Shown here: in pieces, positions 20,850-27,608 of the stretch
Layout of the letters: each line of letters starts with the position of its first letter
Numbering within the stretch: the first letter of the stretch is position 1
Assembly (NCBI RefSeq): GCF_000175575.2
Contig: NZ_CP005986.1
Span: forward strand, 2,499,001-2,563,000
Direction: 5' to 3'
Length of the DNA: 64,000 nt
DNA from: Acidithiobacillus caldus ATCC 51756
Lineage (GTDB): Bacteria; Pseudomonadota; Gammaproteobacteria; Acidithiobacillales; Acidithiobacillaceae
The notes under the pieces: generated by a model
Database searches by the model: none
What the model was told of the DNA's origin: nothing
Seen by the model: the letters and a program-made list of their open reading frames with translations, nothing else
Position numbers and translations under genes: made by a program

Positions 20850-22247
20850 ATGGCATCCGCATCCAGCAGTGTGCGTGAGAGCACCGTTGCCGACGCCCTC
20901 AATACGGCAGCCTTCAGTCCGTTTCATTTGAAGGCCATGTGGGCGGCCTCCATGGGCTTTTTCACCTCGGCCTACGATCTCTTCATCATCGGTACCGCCC
21001 TCGTCCTCATCAAGGCCGAATGGCATCTGAACGCCTCCGAGGTGGGCCTCATCGGCTCCATTTCCCTCATCGCCACCTTCGTCGGCGCCTACTTCTTCGG
21101 CATCCTCGCCGACAAACTCGGGCGCAAGAAAGTGTACGGCCTCGAGGCCATCCTCATGACCATCGGCGCCCTGCTCTCCGCCGTCGCCCCCAACGTCACC
21201 GTCCTCCTCATCGCCCGCGTCATCTTGGGCCTCGGCATCGGCGGCGACTACCCCATGTCCGCCGTCCTCATGTCCGAGTACGCCAACGCCAAATCCCGCG
21301 GGCGCATGGTCTCCCTGGTCTTCTCGGCACAAGCCATCGGCCTCGTCATGGGCCCCGTCGTCGCCCTCACCCTCCTCGCCGCCGGCATGAACCACGATAC
21401 CGCCTGGCGCCTGATGCTCGGCCTCGGCGCTCTGCCCGCCATGGCCGTCATCTACATCCGCCGTACCCTCCCCGAGTCCCCGCGCTGGCTCGCCCGCGTC
21501 AAGGGCGATAGCGCCACCGCCGAGCGCCAGCTGGCTTCCTTCAGCCTCGGCACCGCCGTCGCCAACAAAAACGACAAGATCGTCAAGCAGCCCCTGTCCA
21601 AGTACTGGCTGACCCTCCTCGGCACCGCCGGCTCCTGGTTCATGTTCGACTACGCCTACTACGGCAATACCATCTCCACCCCCATGGTCATGCACCACCT
21701 GGCGCCCCACGCCGACGTGATCCAGAGTACGGCCTTGAGCCTCATCGTCTTTGCCGTGGCCGCCGTGCCCGGCTACTTCCTGGCCGCCTTCACCATCGAC
21801 CGCGTCGGCCACAAGACCCTGCAGATGCTGGGCTTCTTCATGATGGGCCTGATGTTCCTGCTCATCGGCGCCTTCCCCATCCTCACCCAGTCCATCGCCG
21901 TCTTCCTGGTCCTCTACGGTTTGTCCTACTTCTTCGCCGAGTATGGCCCCAACACCACCACCTTCGTGCTGGCCGGTGAGGTCTTCCCCGTCAACCTGCG
22001 TACCACCGGCCACGGTCTGTCCGCCGGTACCGCCAAGGTCGGCGCCTTCCTCGGTGCCCTGGTCTTCCCCATCCTTCTGGCCAAGTTCGGCCTCCACGGC
22101 ACCCTCATGATCACCTTCTTCTTCGCCCTCGCTGGCCTCCTCCTCACCGCCTTCTGCCTCAAGGAGCCCTCCGGCCGTACCCTCGAGGATATCAGCGGCG
22201 AGGACAACGTGGTGCCCGGACCCGGCAATCGACCCGTCCACGCCTGA
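20850..22247 (+). CDS. MFS phosphate:H+ symporter, Pho84/PHS family
   Basis: A 465-residue inner-membrane permease with 12 predicted segments, probably importing inorganic phosphate with protons. The segment GLGIGGDYPMSAVLMSEYAN matches the phosphate-symporter signature, and AGEVFPVNLRTTGHGLSAGTAK the late MFS motif; DKLGRKK is the loop 2-3 motif and the tail RTLEDISGE is typical. ATG 20850 follows AAGGAG. The Pho box upstream supports phosphate as the substrate. Its codons favour CTC, ATC and GTC over the CTG and GTG common in its neighbours, which may mean high expression. Confidence 0.9.
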   Translation: MASASSSVRESTVADALNTAAFSPFHLKAMWAASMGFFTSAYDLFIIGTALVLIKAEWHLNASEVGLIGSISLIATFVGAYFFGILADKLGRKKVYGLEAILMTIGALLSAVAPNVTVLLIARVILGLGIGGDYPMSAVLMSEYANAKSRGRMVSLVFSAQAIGLVMGPVVALTLLAAGMNHDTAWRLMLGLGALPAMAVIYIRRTLPESPRWLARVKGDSATAERQLASFSLGTAVANKNDKIVKQPLSKYWLTLLGTAGSWFMFDYAYYGNTISTPMVMHHLAPHADVIQSTALSLIVFAVAAVPGYFLAAFTIDRVGHKTLQMLGFFMMGLMFLLIGAFPILTQSIAVFLVLYGLSYFFAEYGPNTTTFVLAGEVFPVNLRTTGHGLSAGTAKVGAFLGALVFPILLAKFGLHGTLMITFFFALAGLLLTAFCLKEPSGRTLEDISGEDNVVPGPGNRPVHA

Positions 22248-22272: not shown

Positions 22273-22295
22273 ACCCCGCCTCGCGCGGGGTTTTT
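22273..22295 (+). terminator. Rho-independent terminator after the phosphate permease gene
   Basis: CCCCGC (22275-22280) pairs with GCGGGG (22285-22290) across a five-base loop, followed by TTTTT at 22291-22295. It separates the permease gene from ovoA. Confidence 0.85.
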
Positions 22296-22340: not shown

Positions 22341-22368
22341 GTGGCGGAACCGAGAGGAGGATATTTTC

Positions 22369-24483
22369 ATGTCTGAGTCTGTGGCCGCGCTGCGCCTGGA
22401 TGGCAACGATGCCGAGCAGAAACGTGAGGAGATCCGGCGGCTTTTTCACAGCAGTTTTTCCCGTTACGAACGCCTTTTTCAACACCTCGCCGACGATCGT
22501 GCCTGGTTCGAAAAAGCCATTAGTCTGCGCCACCCACTGATCTTCTATTTCGGCCACACGGCGACCTTCTTTACCAACAAGTTTCTGGTGGCCGGCCTCA
22601 TCGACGAGCACCTCGACCCAGACCTGGAGTCCATCTTCGCCGTGGGTGTCGATGAGATGTCTTGGGACGATCTGGACGAGTCCCACTACGATTGGCCCTC
22701 GGTGGAGGCCGTGAAAGCCTACCGCGCTCGGGTACGGGACATGGTGGATGGGGTCATCGACCGCCTGCCCCTGTCCTTGCCCATCACCTGGGACTCCCCC
22801 TGGTGGGCCGTGCTCATGGGGATCGAACACGAACATATCCATCTGGAGACCAGCTCCGTTCTCATGCGCCAACTGCCCCTGGAGCGGGTACGGGCCGTGG
22901 CCGAATTTGCCCCAGAGCCGGTCTCGGCACCACGGGCGGCCCCGCGCAATGGCCTCATCCCGGTCGCCGGGGGTGTGGTGGAACTGGGCAAGGACCGCGC
23001 CAGTCCCCTCTACGGCTGGGACAACGAATACGGCAGTCATCGGCAGGAACTCGTCGATTTTGCCGCCGCTCGCTACCTGGTCAGCAATGGCGAGTTTCTG
23101 GAATTCGTGGAGGCTGGCGGTTATGGTGAAGCCCGCTGGTGGAGCAGTGAAGGCGACGCCTGGCGCCGCTTTGCCGCCGCCCGTCATCCCACCTTCTGGC
23201 GGCGCGACGGCAATACCTGGCAGCTGCGCCTCATCGCTGAAGTGCGCGAGATGCCTTGGGACTGGCCCGTGGAGGTGAATTACCACGAGGCTGCCGCCTT
23301 CTGTGCCTGGAAATCGGCGCAGACCGGAGAAAAGCTGCGCTTGCCGTCGGAAGACGAGTGGCGTCGCCTGCGCGACCTGAGCGGACTACCCGATGCCGAC
23401 GCCTGGCACGAGGCGCCGGGACAGATCGCCCTGGCCCGCGGCTGCTCACCATGCCCCGTGGATCGTTACCGGCACGGCGAGTTTTACGACGTCGTGGGCA
23501 ATGTCTGGCAATGGACGGAAACCCCCATCTATCCCTTCCCGGGCTTCGAGGTCCACCCCTACTACGATGACTTTACGGTGCCCACCTTCGATCAGCGCCA
23601 CAATCTCATCAAAGGGGGCTCCTTCATCAGTTGCGGCAACGAGACTCAGCGCGAAGCACGCTACGCCTTTCGTCGCCACTTCTTCCAGCATGCGGGCTTC
23701 CGCTACGTGCGTTCCGCCAATCCTCTGCCGGAAGTGCCCGTCTATGAAAGCGATACTCTGGTGGCGCAGTACTGCGACTTCCATTATGGTCCGACGCACT
23801 TTGGCGTCGCCAATTATCCGGCGGCCATGGCTGAGCTCGCTCTGGAGGCCTTGGGCGATGGTCCCCACCGCCGAGCTCTCGATATCGGTTGCGCCGTCGG
23901 GCGCAGCAGTCTGGAACTGGCGCGGGTCTTCTCCGAGGTGGTGGGGATCGACTTCTCGGCCCGTTTCATCCAGGTGGGAGTCCAACTGCAAAACCGCGGA
24001 CGCTATCCCTACGCCGTCACCGAGGAGGGCGAACTCCAGAGTTACCACTGGGCGGATCTGGCGGAGCTGGGCCTGCAGGAATGCAGCGAACGTGTCCAAT
24101 TCTTTCAAGGCGATGCCAGTAATCTGAAACCCCGCTTCCGGGATTTCGATCTCGTCCTGGCGGCCAACCTCATCGACCGTCTGCGCGAACCCCGACGCTT
24201 CCTGGAGGACATGGCTGGCCGCATCCGTCCCGGGGGCCTACTGGTGATCAGCTCACCGTACACTTGGCTTGAGGAGTTCACGCCCAAGGAACACTGGCTG
24301 GGCGGCTTCAAAAAGGATGGCGAGAGTTTCAGCACGCTGCAGGGTCTACACGCCATCCTGGATGCGCATTTTCGGCTGCGGCCCGGCTTTCCCCGCGATC
24401 TTCCCTTCGTCATCCGTGAGACCGCGCGCAAGTTCCAGCATAGCATTGCCGAAGTCACGGTCTGGGAGCGTCTGCCGGGATGA
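22369..24483 (+). CDS. ovoA: 5-histidylcysteine sulfoxide synthase fused to a methyltransferase (OvoA)
   Basis: OvoA is a non-heme iron enzyme that joins cysteine to histidine using O2, the first step of ovothiol synthesis; its C-terminal domain N-methylates the thiohistidine. It is 704 residues in three parts. A DinB-like N-terminal domain carries the iron site HX3HXE (H154, H158, E160 in GIEHEHIHLE). A formylglycine-generating-enzyme/sulfatase-modifying-like middle domain holds NEYGSHRQ, LPSEDEWRRL, VVGNVWQWTE and IKGGSFISCGN. From about residue 485 a SAM methyltransferase has ALDIGCAVGRSS and VVGIDFSARF. ATG 22369 follows GAGGAGG. The stop overlaps ovoB as ATGA. Confidence 0.94.
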   Translation: MSESVAALRLDGNDAEQKREEIRRLFHSSFSRYERLFQHLADDRAWFEKAISLRHPLIFYFGHTATFFTNKFLVAGLIDEHLDPDLESIFAVGVDEMSWDDLDESHYDWPSVEAVKAYRARVRDMVDGVIDRLPLSLPITWDSPWWAVLMGIEHEHIHLETSSVLMRQLPLERVRAVAEFAPEPVSAPRAAPRNGLIPVAGGVVELGKDRASPLYGWDNEYGSHRQELVDFAAARYLVSNGEFLEFVEAGGYGEARWWSSEGDAWRRFAAARHPTFWRRDGNTWQLRLIAEVREMPWDWPVEVNYHEAAAFCAWKSAQTGEKLRLPSEDEWRRLRDLSGLPDADAWHEAPGQIALARGCSPCPVDRYRHGEFYDVVGNVWQWTETPIYPFPGFEVHPYYDDFTVPTFDQRHNLIKGGSFISCGNETQREARYAFRRHFFQHAGFRYVRSANPLPEVPVYESDTLVAQYCDFHYGPTHFGVANYPAAMAELALEALGDGPHRRALDIGCAVGRSSLELARVFSEVVGIDFSARFIQVGVQLQNRGRYPYAVTEEGELQSYHWADLAELGLQECSERVQFFQGDASNLKPRFRDFDLVLAANLIDRLREPRRFLEDMAGRIRPGGLLVISSPYTWLEEFTPKEHWLGGFKKDGESFSTLQGLHAILDAHFRLRPGFPRDLPFVIRETARKFQHSIAEVTVWERLPG

Positions 24484-25652
24484 GCGTGGACGCGCTGGAC
24501 GATTTCGATCGCATCTGGGATCGCCACGGGACGGGCTCGCTGAAGTGGGATGGGGCCAAAGCGCGCTTTGGAGCCGAGGTCTTGCCCATGTGGGTTGCGG
24601 ACATGGACCTGCCCACGGCACCGGTGGTGCTCGAGGCCCTGCGCCGCCGTTTGCAGCACCCCATCCTCGGTTATCCTTGGCTGGATCACGAGTATCGCAT
24701 GGCAGCCTGCCAGTGGATGGCGCAACGGCATGGTTGGGGGCCGGAAGTCGGACACACTCAGGTGGCCAGCGGCGTGGTGCCGGCGCTGTTCGCCGCCGTG
24801 CGCGCCCTGACTGCGCCCGGCGACACCGTCCTGACCCTGACCCCCGTCTATCCGCCCTTCTTGCAGGCCGTGCGCAGCAATGGTCGGGCGCTGCGGACCC
24901 TCACACTGGAGTGTGACGCCGAAGGCGTCTATCGCATCCCTTGGGAGCAACTCGACGATGCCCTGGCGGGAACGCGGCTGCTCCTGCTCTGTTCGCCCCA
25001 CAATCCCGTCGGACGGGTATGGACCAGCGAGGAGTTGTCGCGTTTGGTGGCGCTCTGCCGCGGTCACGGCGTACGCGTAGTCAGCGACGAGATTCACGCC
25101 GACCTCAGCGAGCTGCCGCATACCCCCCTGTCCGCGCTCATGCCCGAAGCCGTGCTCCTCAGCGCCCCGGGCAAGGCCTTCAACATGGCGGGACTTGGCG
25201 GTGCCGTCATCGCTTGCGGTGACGCCGAAGCATACCGTCTCCTGCGCGAGGAGCTAGAGCGTTCCCAGTGCCAACACGCCACCACACCCGGGCTGGTAGC
25301 GGGCATTGCCGCGTGGCGCGACGGGGCCCAGTGGCTGGACCGGGTACGCGCCTACCTGCGGGGCAATGCCCTCGCCCTTGCCCAGCGCATCGCTCGGGAC
25401 ATGCCGGCCTTGGCCTTCCGGCCACCGGAATTTGGTTACCTAGCCTGGCTCGACCTGCGGCGCTGTGGCCAGGACGATCAACGCATCGACGCGGTGCTGC
25501 GTGAGGTGGGCCTTGGGCTCAATGCCGGCGCCGATTTTGGTCCCGGTGGTGCAGGCTTCCGACGTCTCAATTTTGGCTGTCCGCGCCCGCTTCTGGAGGC
25601 CGGTCTCGACCGTCTGCAGCGGGCATTGGCCCACCTGTCGCCGCCGGCCTGA
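24480..25652 (+). CDS. ovoB: PLP-dependent C-S lyase, MalY/PatB type, probable OvoB
   Basis: A 390-residue fold-type I enzyme. Seen are VLPMWVADMDLPTAP, GYPWLDHEYR, SPHNPVGRVW, SDEIHADL and the PLP lysine K232 in SAPGKAFNMAGLGG, all typical of cystathionine beta-lyase MalY/PatB. By itself it could be a beta-lyase of methionine metabolism. Its ATGA coupling to ovoA makes the OvoB role more likely: cleaving the histidylcysteine sulfoxide to release the thiohistidine. The 3' end overlaps the waaA 3' end on the other strand by 86 bases. Confidence 0.88.
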   Translation: MSVDALDDFDRIWDRHGTGSLKWDGAKARFGAEVLPMWVADMDLPTAPVVLEALRRRLQHPILGYPWLDHEYRMAACQWMAQRHGWGPEVGHTQVASGVVPALFAAVRALTAPGDTVLTLTPVYPPFLQAVRSNGRALRTLTLECDAEGVYRIPWEQLDDALAGTRLLLLCSPHNPVGRVWTSEELSRLVALCRGHGVRVVSDEIHADLSELPHTPLSALMPEAVLLSAPGKAFNMAGLGGAVIACGDAEAYRLLREELERSQCQHATTPGLVAGIAAWRDGAQWLDRVRAYLRGNALALAQRIARDMPALAFRPPEFGYLAWLDLRRCGQDDQRIDAVLREVGLGLNAGADFGPGGAGFRRLNFGCPRPLLEAGLDRLQRALAHLSPPA

Positions 25653-26925
25653 TGGCGGCCGGCACCGGCAAGACCTGCTCCCGCGCCAGCCATTCCAGGG
25701 TTGTAGCCAGCGCCCCACGCTGGCTGCGCAGCCAGCTCGCGGCTCGCTCCCCAGCCTCTGCCCGCAATTGCGGCTCGCGCAGCAAAGCAGCGATCTGGGT
25801 GCGTAGGTCCTGCGCCCCCGCAACCGGAAAGGCCGCCCGTGCCGCCACCAGAGCCTCGGCCACGGCGGCAAAATTGTCCATGTGCGGACCAAAGATCGGC
25901 GCTCGACCCAGGATCGCTGCCTCGATGGGATTGTGTCCACCTACCGCCACGAAACTGCCGCCGATGGTGACGACATCGGCTGCGGCGTAAAAATCCAGAA
26001 CCTCACCCAGGGTGTCGATGAGAAAAATGGCCCGCTCCCCGACCTGTGGTGTCTCGGCGCGGGAACGGCGCCGACAGGGGCAGCCGGCAGCACGGATCTC
26101 GGCACATACGGCGTCGCCGCGTTCGGGGTGGCGGGGTATGAGGACGAGCAGCAGGTCCGGAAAGTCCGCCCATAGCTCCTTGAGTACGCCGAGGGCAAGG
26201 GCCTCCTCGCCAACGTGGGTGGAGGCGAATACCCACAGGGGACGACCGCCCAGTTGGAGGTGCCACGCCTGCCCTGCGGCCCGAGCCGCCTGTGGGTCCG
26301 GAAGGTCGGTTTTGATCTGCCCCAGGACCGCTACCCGCTCCGCCCCGAGCCTGGCGAAGGCGGCGGCGTCCCGGTCGGTCTGGGCCGCGATCGGCAGGTC
26401 GCGCAACAACGGCGCAAAAAGGCCGCGGAAGCGCCCATAACCCCGTTGCGAGGATGCCGACAGACGGGCGTTCAGCAGGGCCATGGGAATCTGCCGACGG
26501 CGGGCGACACGGTAGAGGTTGGGCCAGATTTCCGTCTCCAGGAAAATTCCGGCACAGGGGTCCTGGCGCCTGAGGAATCGTCCCACGGCTCCGGGAAGAT
26601 CGTAGGGGAGGTAGAAATTGGTGACTTCCCTTCCCAGGTGGCGACGGATGGTGGCAGCACCCGTGGGCGTGGTGCTGGTGACCACCAGAGGCTGCTCCGG
26701 ATATCGCTCCCGCAGGGCGCGCAGGAGGGGTAGCGCGGCCATGCTCTCGCCCACACTCACGGCGTGTACCCAGATGGGTCGCCGCCCAGATCTGCGGGGG
26801 ATCCAACCGAAACGCTCGCGCCAGCGATCCCGATAGGCAGGCCGGCGCCAGAGCTTCCAGAGGGTATACAGCCACACCAGGGGCGTCAGCAAAATGGTGA
26901 GCAGCCAGTAGAGCCGGGCCATCAT
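25567..26925 (-). CDS. waaA: Kdo transferase WaaA (KdtA)
   Basis: WaaA adds Kdo to lipid IVA at the inner face of the inner membrane, founding the LPS core. It is 452 residues with an N-terminal membrane anchor (ARLYWLLTILLTPLVWLYTL), then WVHAVSVGESMAALPLLRAL, LYLETEIWPNL-type FLETEIWPNL, ALLNARLSASSQRGY, ASTHVGEEA and IGGSFVAVGGHNPIEAA. It is longer than usual because of a proline- and alanine-rich tail of about 25 residues that overlaps ovoB. Whether it is mono- or bifunctional cannot be read here. ATG 26925 overlaps the phosphatase stop. It is the last gene of the LPS convoy. Confidence 0.95.
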   Translation of the reverse strand: MMARLYWLLTILLTPLVWLYTLWKLWRRPAYRDRWRERFGWIPRRSGRRPIWVHAVSVGESMAALPLLRALRERYPEQPLVVTSTTPTGAATIRRHLGREVTNFYLPYDLPGAVGRFLRRQDPCAGIFLETEIWPNLYRVARRRQIPMALLNARLSASSQRGYGRFRGLFAPLLRDLPIAAQTDRDAAAFARLGAERVAVLGQIKTDLPDPQAARAAGQAWHLQLGGRPLWVFASTHVGEEALALGVLKELWADFPDLLLVLIPRHPERGDAVCAEIRAAGCPCRRRSRAETPQVGERAIFLIDTLGEVLDFYAAADVVTIGGSFVAVGGHNPIEAAILGRAPIFGPHMDNFAAVAEALVAARAAFPVAGAQDLRTQIAALLREPQLRAEAGERAASWLRSQRGALATTLEWLAREQVLPVPAAIRPAATGGPMPAADGRDRPPEAGADSQN

Positions 26926-27608
26926 TCGCGCCGCAGCAGGCGATCCGTGAGCCAGTCCAGGCGATACCAGGGGCGAAAACTCGCCAGGATGGCCTCTCGG
27001 TCGTAATCCTCGGCAATCCAGCGGCGCAGATCAAAGTGCGCATCCTGCAGCGCCTGCCGCCGGGCGACCGTAAAGAACCAGTCGAGGATACCGGTATTGG
27101 CGTGGCGGATGTGTCCATAGGGCCATATACGCAGCTGAGCGCTGGCCTCTTCCAGACTTTGGCCCAGTTGCAGATGGGAGTAGAGCACACTCATGAAACC
27201 GGCTCGGTCGGCACCGGACTTGCAGTGCATGAGGAAGGGACGGGGCAGTCGCTCCAGGGTCTCGATGGCCTCCAGGAACTGCTCCCGCCGCGGTAGATCC
27301 CGGGAACCGATGCCGTGGAGGAGTACGTGCTCCATCCCCAGGGCATCGCAAACCTCCTGCTCCAACTGGAATTGCGGTTCGTGGGCGGCCGGCGCACGCA
27401 GGTTGAGAACGGCACGCAGACCGTAACGCCGATGCCAGCGGCGCAACTGGTACGGCGCGGGCTGAGCGGAACGGTAGGCGCCCATGCCCACCTCGTGGAA
27501 GTTGACATAGAGGAGTTCACGGAAGACGCCGTGATCGTTCCAGAACTGGTGCCTGCGATATTGCTGCCGTTCCTTGGCTGAAAGCAGGATGGGCGGCGGA
27601 GGCGGCAT
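26922..27608 (-). CDS. Protein tyrosine/dual-specificity phosphatase-like protein within the LPS operon
   Basis: A 228-residue protein with the Cys-based phosphatase loop HCKSGADRAG (catalytic Cys129, Arg135; the CX5R motif) and a preceding strand RAVLNLRAP. In this family an Asp general acid lies about 30 residues before the Cys (candidate Asp104 in GSRDLP). No signal peptide or membrane segment is seen, so it should be cytosolic. It lies between waaC and waaA with a 4-base gap and an ATGA overlap. Phosphatases of this kind can act on proteins, phosphoinositides or sugar phosphates; a core-sugar or Kdo-phosphate role or a regulatory role is possible but unproven. Confidence 0.82.
   Translation of the reverse strand: MPPPPPILLSAKERQQYRRHQFWNDHGVFRELLYVNFHEVGMGAYRSAQPAPYQLRRWHRRYGLRAVLNLRAPAAHEPQFQLEQEVCDALGMEHVLLHGIGSRDLPRREQFLEAIETLERLPRPFLMHCKSGADRAGFMSVLYSHLQLGQSLEEASAQLRIWPYGHIRHANTGILDWFFTVARRQALQDAHFDLRRWIAEDYDREAILASFRPWYRLDWLTDRLLRRE

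Follow-up and report, generated by a model that had tools for sequence, protein, structure and literature searches.

Ovothiol A is an antioxidant thiol best known from marine animals. The chemistry of the ovothiol pathway has been described (PMC9103826, PMC12631010), and the first demonstration of its lyase, OvoB, came from Erwinia tasmaniensis (PMC9103826). In OvoA of the same organism, mutation of the H170/H174/E176 site cut activity 100-fold (PMC9103826). Here we analysed a 64,000 nucleotide stretch of the genome of Acidithiobacillus caldus ATCC 51756, hereafter the window, in which an ovoA gene is followed by, and overlaps with, a gene for a PLP-dependent C-S lyase (Table 1). A pair of this kind is of an already known type, and we consider the two genes to be a two-gene ovothiol A operon, with a probability of about 0.88.

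The proposed pathway is modelled on the characterised homologues, in every reaction step as well as in the translational coupling. The N-terminal part of OvoA would use non-haem Fe(II) and O2 to join cysteine to C5 of histidine, yielding histidyl-cysteine sulfoxide, which the PLP lyase OvoB would cleave to 5-thiohistidine, pyruvate and ammonia, ovoB being probably translated in step with ovoA through the ATGA overlap. The C-terminal domain of OvoA would then carry out SAM-dependent N-methylation of 5-thiohistidine to ovothiol A.

The ovoA and ovoB genes of A. caldus

Table 1. Features of the ovoA-ovoB locus (positions are those of the window)
Feature	Position	Strand	Basis or remark
Upstream neighbour: MFS transporter, phosphate:H+ symporter-like	20850..22247	+	not at the locus in genus g2
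Terminator-like hairpin between MFS gene and ovoA	22273..22291	+	scan: 2 found, 2.3 expected as background
AGGAGG, ribosome-binding-site-like, of ovoA	22355..22360	+	direct reading; 8 bases 5' of ATG
ovoA: bifunctional 5-histidylcysteine sulfoxide synthase / 5-thiohistidine N-methyltransferase	22369..24483	+	704 aa; ATG start at 22369, stop ends at 24483; TIGR04344, TIGR04345 and 8khq match
DinB_2 domain of OvoA (residues 30-161), with metal-site histidines	22456..22851	+	Pfam PF12867
HX3HXE motif (H154/H158/E160) of OvoA	22828..22848	+	motif search; alignment with 8khq
FGE-sulfatase-like domain of OvoA (residues 195-448)	22951..23712	+	Pfam PF03781
C-terminal SAM-dependent N-methyltransferase domain of OvoA (residues about 459-701)	23743..24471	+	TIGR04345; OvoM 9bxl, 255 bits
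ATGA overlap: ovoB start codon and ovoA stop codon	24480..24483	+	same 4-base overlap in most relatives
ovoB: PLP-dependent PatB/MalY-family C-S lyase	24480..25652	+	390 aa; TIGR04350; model compared with 6qp3 and 5z0q
K232 codon, presumed PLP Schiff-base lysine (SAPGKAFN)	25173..25175	+	invariant in 25 lyases

The first-pass annotation had proposed a full-length OvoA with an intact HX3HXE site and a fused methyltransferase, and this was borne out. DinB_2, FGE-sulfatase and methyltransferase domains follow one another in a single protein (Pfam), which cleared both curated cut-offs easily, with 682 bits against TIGR04344, the NCBI ovoA model (cut-off 400), and 330 bits against TIGR04345, the NCBI model for the C-terminal part of OvoA (cut-off 170). 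Scores against SenA (169 bits, cut-off 420) and against the EgtB model TIGR03440 (178 bits, far under the cut-off of 360) did not reach the respective thresholds, EgtB of the ergothioneine pathway being a distant homologue of the N-terminal part of OvoA. A profile search of the A. caldus genome found no other EgtB-like gene. The protein aligned end to end with the crystallised 8khq, which we take to be OvoA of Methyloversatilis thermotolerans (890 bits). The OvoA proteins of 8khq and E. tasmaniensis have the same three-domain order, HX3HXE site and fused N-methyltransferase; the protein of the window, known here from its sequence, differs from 8khq in its identity of 55% and in its acidophile-family host. 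The nearest named record was OvoA of an Acidithiobacillus MAG (89% identity). In agreement with the assignment to A. caldus, a small contig of the same genome matched plasmids of A. caldus over part of its length, with about 94-99.8% identity.

The only HX3HXE motif in the protein is H154-E-H-I-H158-L-E160, without a second occurrence, and its three defining residues are invariant across the OvoA proteins of the family and 8khq in the alignment. We take H154, H158 and E160 to be the predicted counterparts of H170, H174 and E176 of E. tasmaniensis OvoA, and alignment offsets alone place Y399 as the probable equivalent of Y417, an active-site tyrosine that has been studied. The list of open reading frames would also permit a TTG at 22294 as the start of a longer OvoA; this start was disfavoured relative to the ATG at 22369 by the ribosome-binding site and by the alignment with relatives.

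The ATGA overlap of ovoA with a PLP C-S lyase gene was likewise real, and the extent given earlier for the pair (22369-25652) was exact. The lyase scored 505 bits against TIGR04350, the PatB C-S lyase model (cut-off 340), and is the only PatB over cut-off in the genome. Its predicted structure (pLDDT 94) found PatB and cystathionine beta-lyases as the best fold matches, with B. subtilis PatB (6qp3) at Z 55.7, rmsd 1.1 and 39% identity over 377 aligned residues. The structure 5z0q, 'Crystal Structure of OvoB', was matched at Z 49.2, rmsd 1.7 and 368 aligned residues, and at 1.2e-62 in the sequence search. OvoB belongs to the broad PatB/MalY family, and 5z0q and the lyase of the window share its PLP C-S lyase fold; they are, however, only 36% identical, the lyase of the window being slightly nearer to B. 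subtilis PatB. The protein has both this fold with its PLP lysine and a genetic link to ovoA. PatB-family enzymes act on many cysteine S-conjugates, and it is the gene linkage that argues for action on the ovothiol sulfoxide, similarity alone being insufficient. At their 3' ends, ovoB and the reading frame of waaA, which converges on it, share 86 bases (window 25567-25652).

Upstream of ovoA, a sigma-70-type promoter scan gave no match. The terminator-like hairpin suggests that ovoA-ovoB is its own transcription unit, the background of the scan being as high as the number of hairpins found. The MFS transporter gene that precedes it probably lies outside the ovothiol pathway. We considered the transporter as an ovothiol exporter and rejected this, since it fitted best, though under that model's cut-off, to a phosphate:H+ symporter model, is set apart from ovoA by the hairpin and has no place next to ovoA in genus g2. 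The MFS protein is 98.5% identical to its counterpart in genome G018, where flanking genes are mostly 75-92% identical; its gene has a third-position GC of 0.90 as against about 0.75 in its neighbours, a dN/dS of 0.03, and a place at the ovoA locus in genera g1 and g4 only.

Conservation and gene order in Acidithiobacillaceae

The ovoA gene was present in 27 of the 29 family genomes, including all 23 of good quality, and in 19 of 299 genomes (about 6%) of a sample of the phylum. Genera g1, g2 and g4, three out of four, have one gene order around it, in which bioF, bioH and bioC point away, comF-trmL-(MFS)-ovoA-ovoB follow and waaA is convergent; the MFS member of this block is present in g1 and most of g4. 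In genus g3 the ovoA-ovoB pair is present without the bioF/comF/trmL/waaA-type neighbours. The 4-base overlap is kept through most of the family. Between the two genomes of genus g1, dN/dS was 0.086 for ovoA and 0.094 for ovoB, and both genes are under purifying selection. Presence across the family, gene order and dN/dS thus indicate a pair of long standing in the family that selection has maintained, and ovoA is an old core trait of the family. Between waaA and waaC, the window also encodes a dual-specificity-phosphatase-like protein (26922-27608), which in most of the family is conserved with 58-92% identity and has only weak Pfam matches.

The description of the pair as coupled stood for the locus in the window but not as a rule. 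In four genomes of genus g4 (G025, L040; G026, L042; G022, L044; G028, L045), ovoA borders directly on waaA and the lyase gene that would separate them is missing, so that coupling of ovoA with the lyase is not obligatory. Each of the four carries one PatB over cut-off elsewhere in the genome, and two further g4 genomes (G021 and G023) have both the ovoA-adjacent lyase and a remote PatB. In the lyase tree, the remote copies form one clade within the lyase clade of the family (support 100/99), and where examined (L214, L215) they adjoin a convergent pyridine-nucleotide-disulfide oxidoreductase. In the four genomes the ovoB next to ovoA has been lost, and a paralogue retained at a distance may have taken over its role.

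In G026, a one-base shift within a G/C run divides ovoA into two reading frames (L042:8000-8060). We considered a natural OvoA with a separate methyltransferase; an assembly error is likelier, since gshA is likewise split in that genome. The gshA gene was found in 27 of the 29 family genomes, that of A. caldus among them, and ovothiol would therefore be an extra thiol and no substitute for glutathione.

In the literature covered, no paper was found that joins ovothiol and Acidithiobacillus, and no earlier report of family-wide ovoA-ovoB conservation; the main bacterial survey (Brancaccio 2021) lies outside this coverage, so that the distribution can be called new only provisionally.

Recurrent pairing and alternative readings

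Outside the family, 42 of 70 loci with enough flank have a PatB-type lyase directly 3' of ovoA in the same orientation, the ends of the ovoA and lyase matches being a median of 18 bases apart; 27 of the 70 have no PatB-type lyase within the flank. When the largest downstream open reading frames of 15 solitary-ovoA loci were listed, none was lyase-like by eye. Among 232 genomes of the class, PatB over cut-off was found in 10 of the 14 that have ovoA and in 27 of the other 218 (Fisher p 2e-6, with no correction for relatedness). Recurrent pairing and co-occurrence together support a functional link between ovoA and the lyase, and the frequency among distant loci makes the arrangement an ordinary one. 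The pairs in Nitrosomonas, Nitrosospira, Methylophaga and Sulfuricella resemble the one described here in that the lyase immediately follows ovoA in the same orientation, but they usually have a short gap where the window and most of the family have the 4-base overlap, and their lyases are only about 36-44% identical to that of the window. A single OvoB clade was looked for and rejected, the ovoA-linked lyases being divided between branches of the PatB tree, with those of Geobacteraceae elsewhere; hence a sequence signature of OvoB could not be drawn.

These data bear directly on whether the lyase is a general cystathionine/cysteine-S-conjugate beta-lyase that neighbours ovoA by chance, any PLP lyase being able to cleave the sulfoxide. 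PatB/MalY enzymes are indeed broad, the nearest folds are those of PatB and cystathionine beta-lyases, and four g4 genomes keep ovoA with PatB elsewhere. Against this stand the lyase found behind ovoA in most of the distant loci and the overlap maintained through most of the family. Moreover, a cystathionine beta-lyase is not needed for methionine, as homocysteine is made by direct sulfhydrylation, with no cystathionine step: the O-succinylhomoserine sulfhydrylase MetZ (652 bits, cut-off 522) is the only Cys_Met_Meta_PP protein over cut-off in the genome. We therefore regard a general lyase as improbable.

The product could also be something other than ovothiol A, namely unmethylated 5-thiohistidine, a derivative carrying further modifications or a selenium analogue, since tailoring enzymes such as a 5-thiohistidine N-acetyltransferase exist (PMC12631010), and the domains of OvoA are related to the seleno-enzymes OvsM and OvsA. 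This is somewhat less probable still: the fused methyltransferase is intact, scoring well over its cut-off, structure-sequence and profile searches gave a match to OvoA far above those to OvsA or SenA, and the conserved block holds no tailoring gene. The least probable of the alternatives, to which we give very little weight, is that the protein acts mainly as a thiol oxygenase of the cysteine dioxygenase kind and not in ovothiol synthesis. It draws on M. thermotolerans OvoA, which is called a bifunctional thiol oxygenase and sulfoxide synthase in the title of Cheng et al. 2022, as cited in PMC10903977, but a pure cysteine oxygenase would need neither the C-terminal methyltransferase nor the adjacent lyase, both of which are under purifying selection. 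The prediction made in the first-pass annotation that the organism would make ovothiol A is thus well supported as a sequence-based one, by the equivalog models, the relatives 8khq and 5z0q, the catalytic residues, purifying selection and recurrent pairing.

Ovothiol, habitat and the sister family

The first-pass annotation had also held the thiol to be suited to iron-rich acid habitats, and the distribution of the genes did not support this. Rusticyanin was over cut-off in only 8 of the 29 family genomes as against 27 for ovoA, and none was over cut-off in the A. caldus genome. The ovoA gene occurs in many non-acidophiles, and pairs of ovoA and lyase are common in ammonia oxidisers and methylotrophs, as in the Nitrosomonas, Nitrosospira and Methylophaga loci described above. 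The ovothiol genes therefore follow neither iron oxidation nor acidity, and the role of ovothiol is not specifically tied to iron.

The sister family in the same order (f76), represented by two genomes, G344 (L256) and G454 (L257), has a true EgtB, scoring 601 and 580 bits, and no OvoA over cut-off in either genome. Conversely, none of the four Acidithiobacillaceae genomes checked has an EgtB over cut-off. The contrast between the sister families, drawn from few genomes, suggests a thiol swap. That ovothiol serves all of the acidophile family as a core thiol, and was gained or retained instead of ergothioneine when this family parted from the sister family, is a tentative and rather unlikely extension from these two sister and four family genomes. 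In the reading preferred here, a two-gene ovothiol A operon, ovothiol would have been fixed early in the family as an extra thiol beside glutathione.

The conservation across the family and the contrast between EgtB and OvoA are the parts of this analysis worth keeping. The g4 lineages without an adjacent lyase and the sister family with EgtB offer a natural comparison for the role of ovothiol in bacteria. The analysis leads to a testable claim, that bioleaching acidophiles should make ovothiol A, and that nearly the whole family should do likewise.
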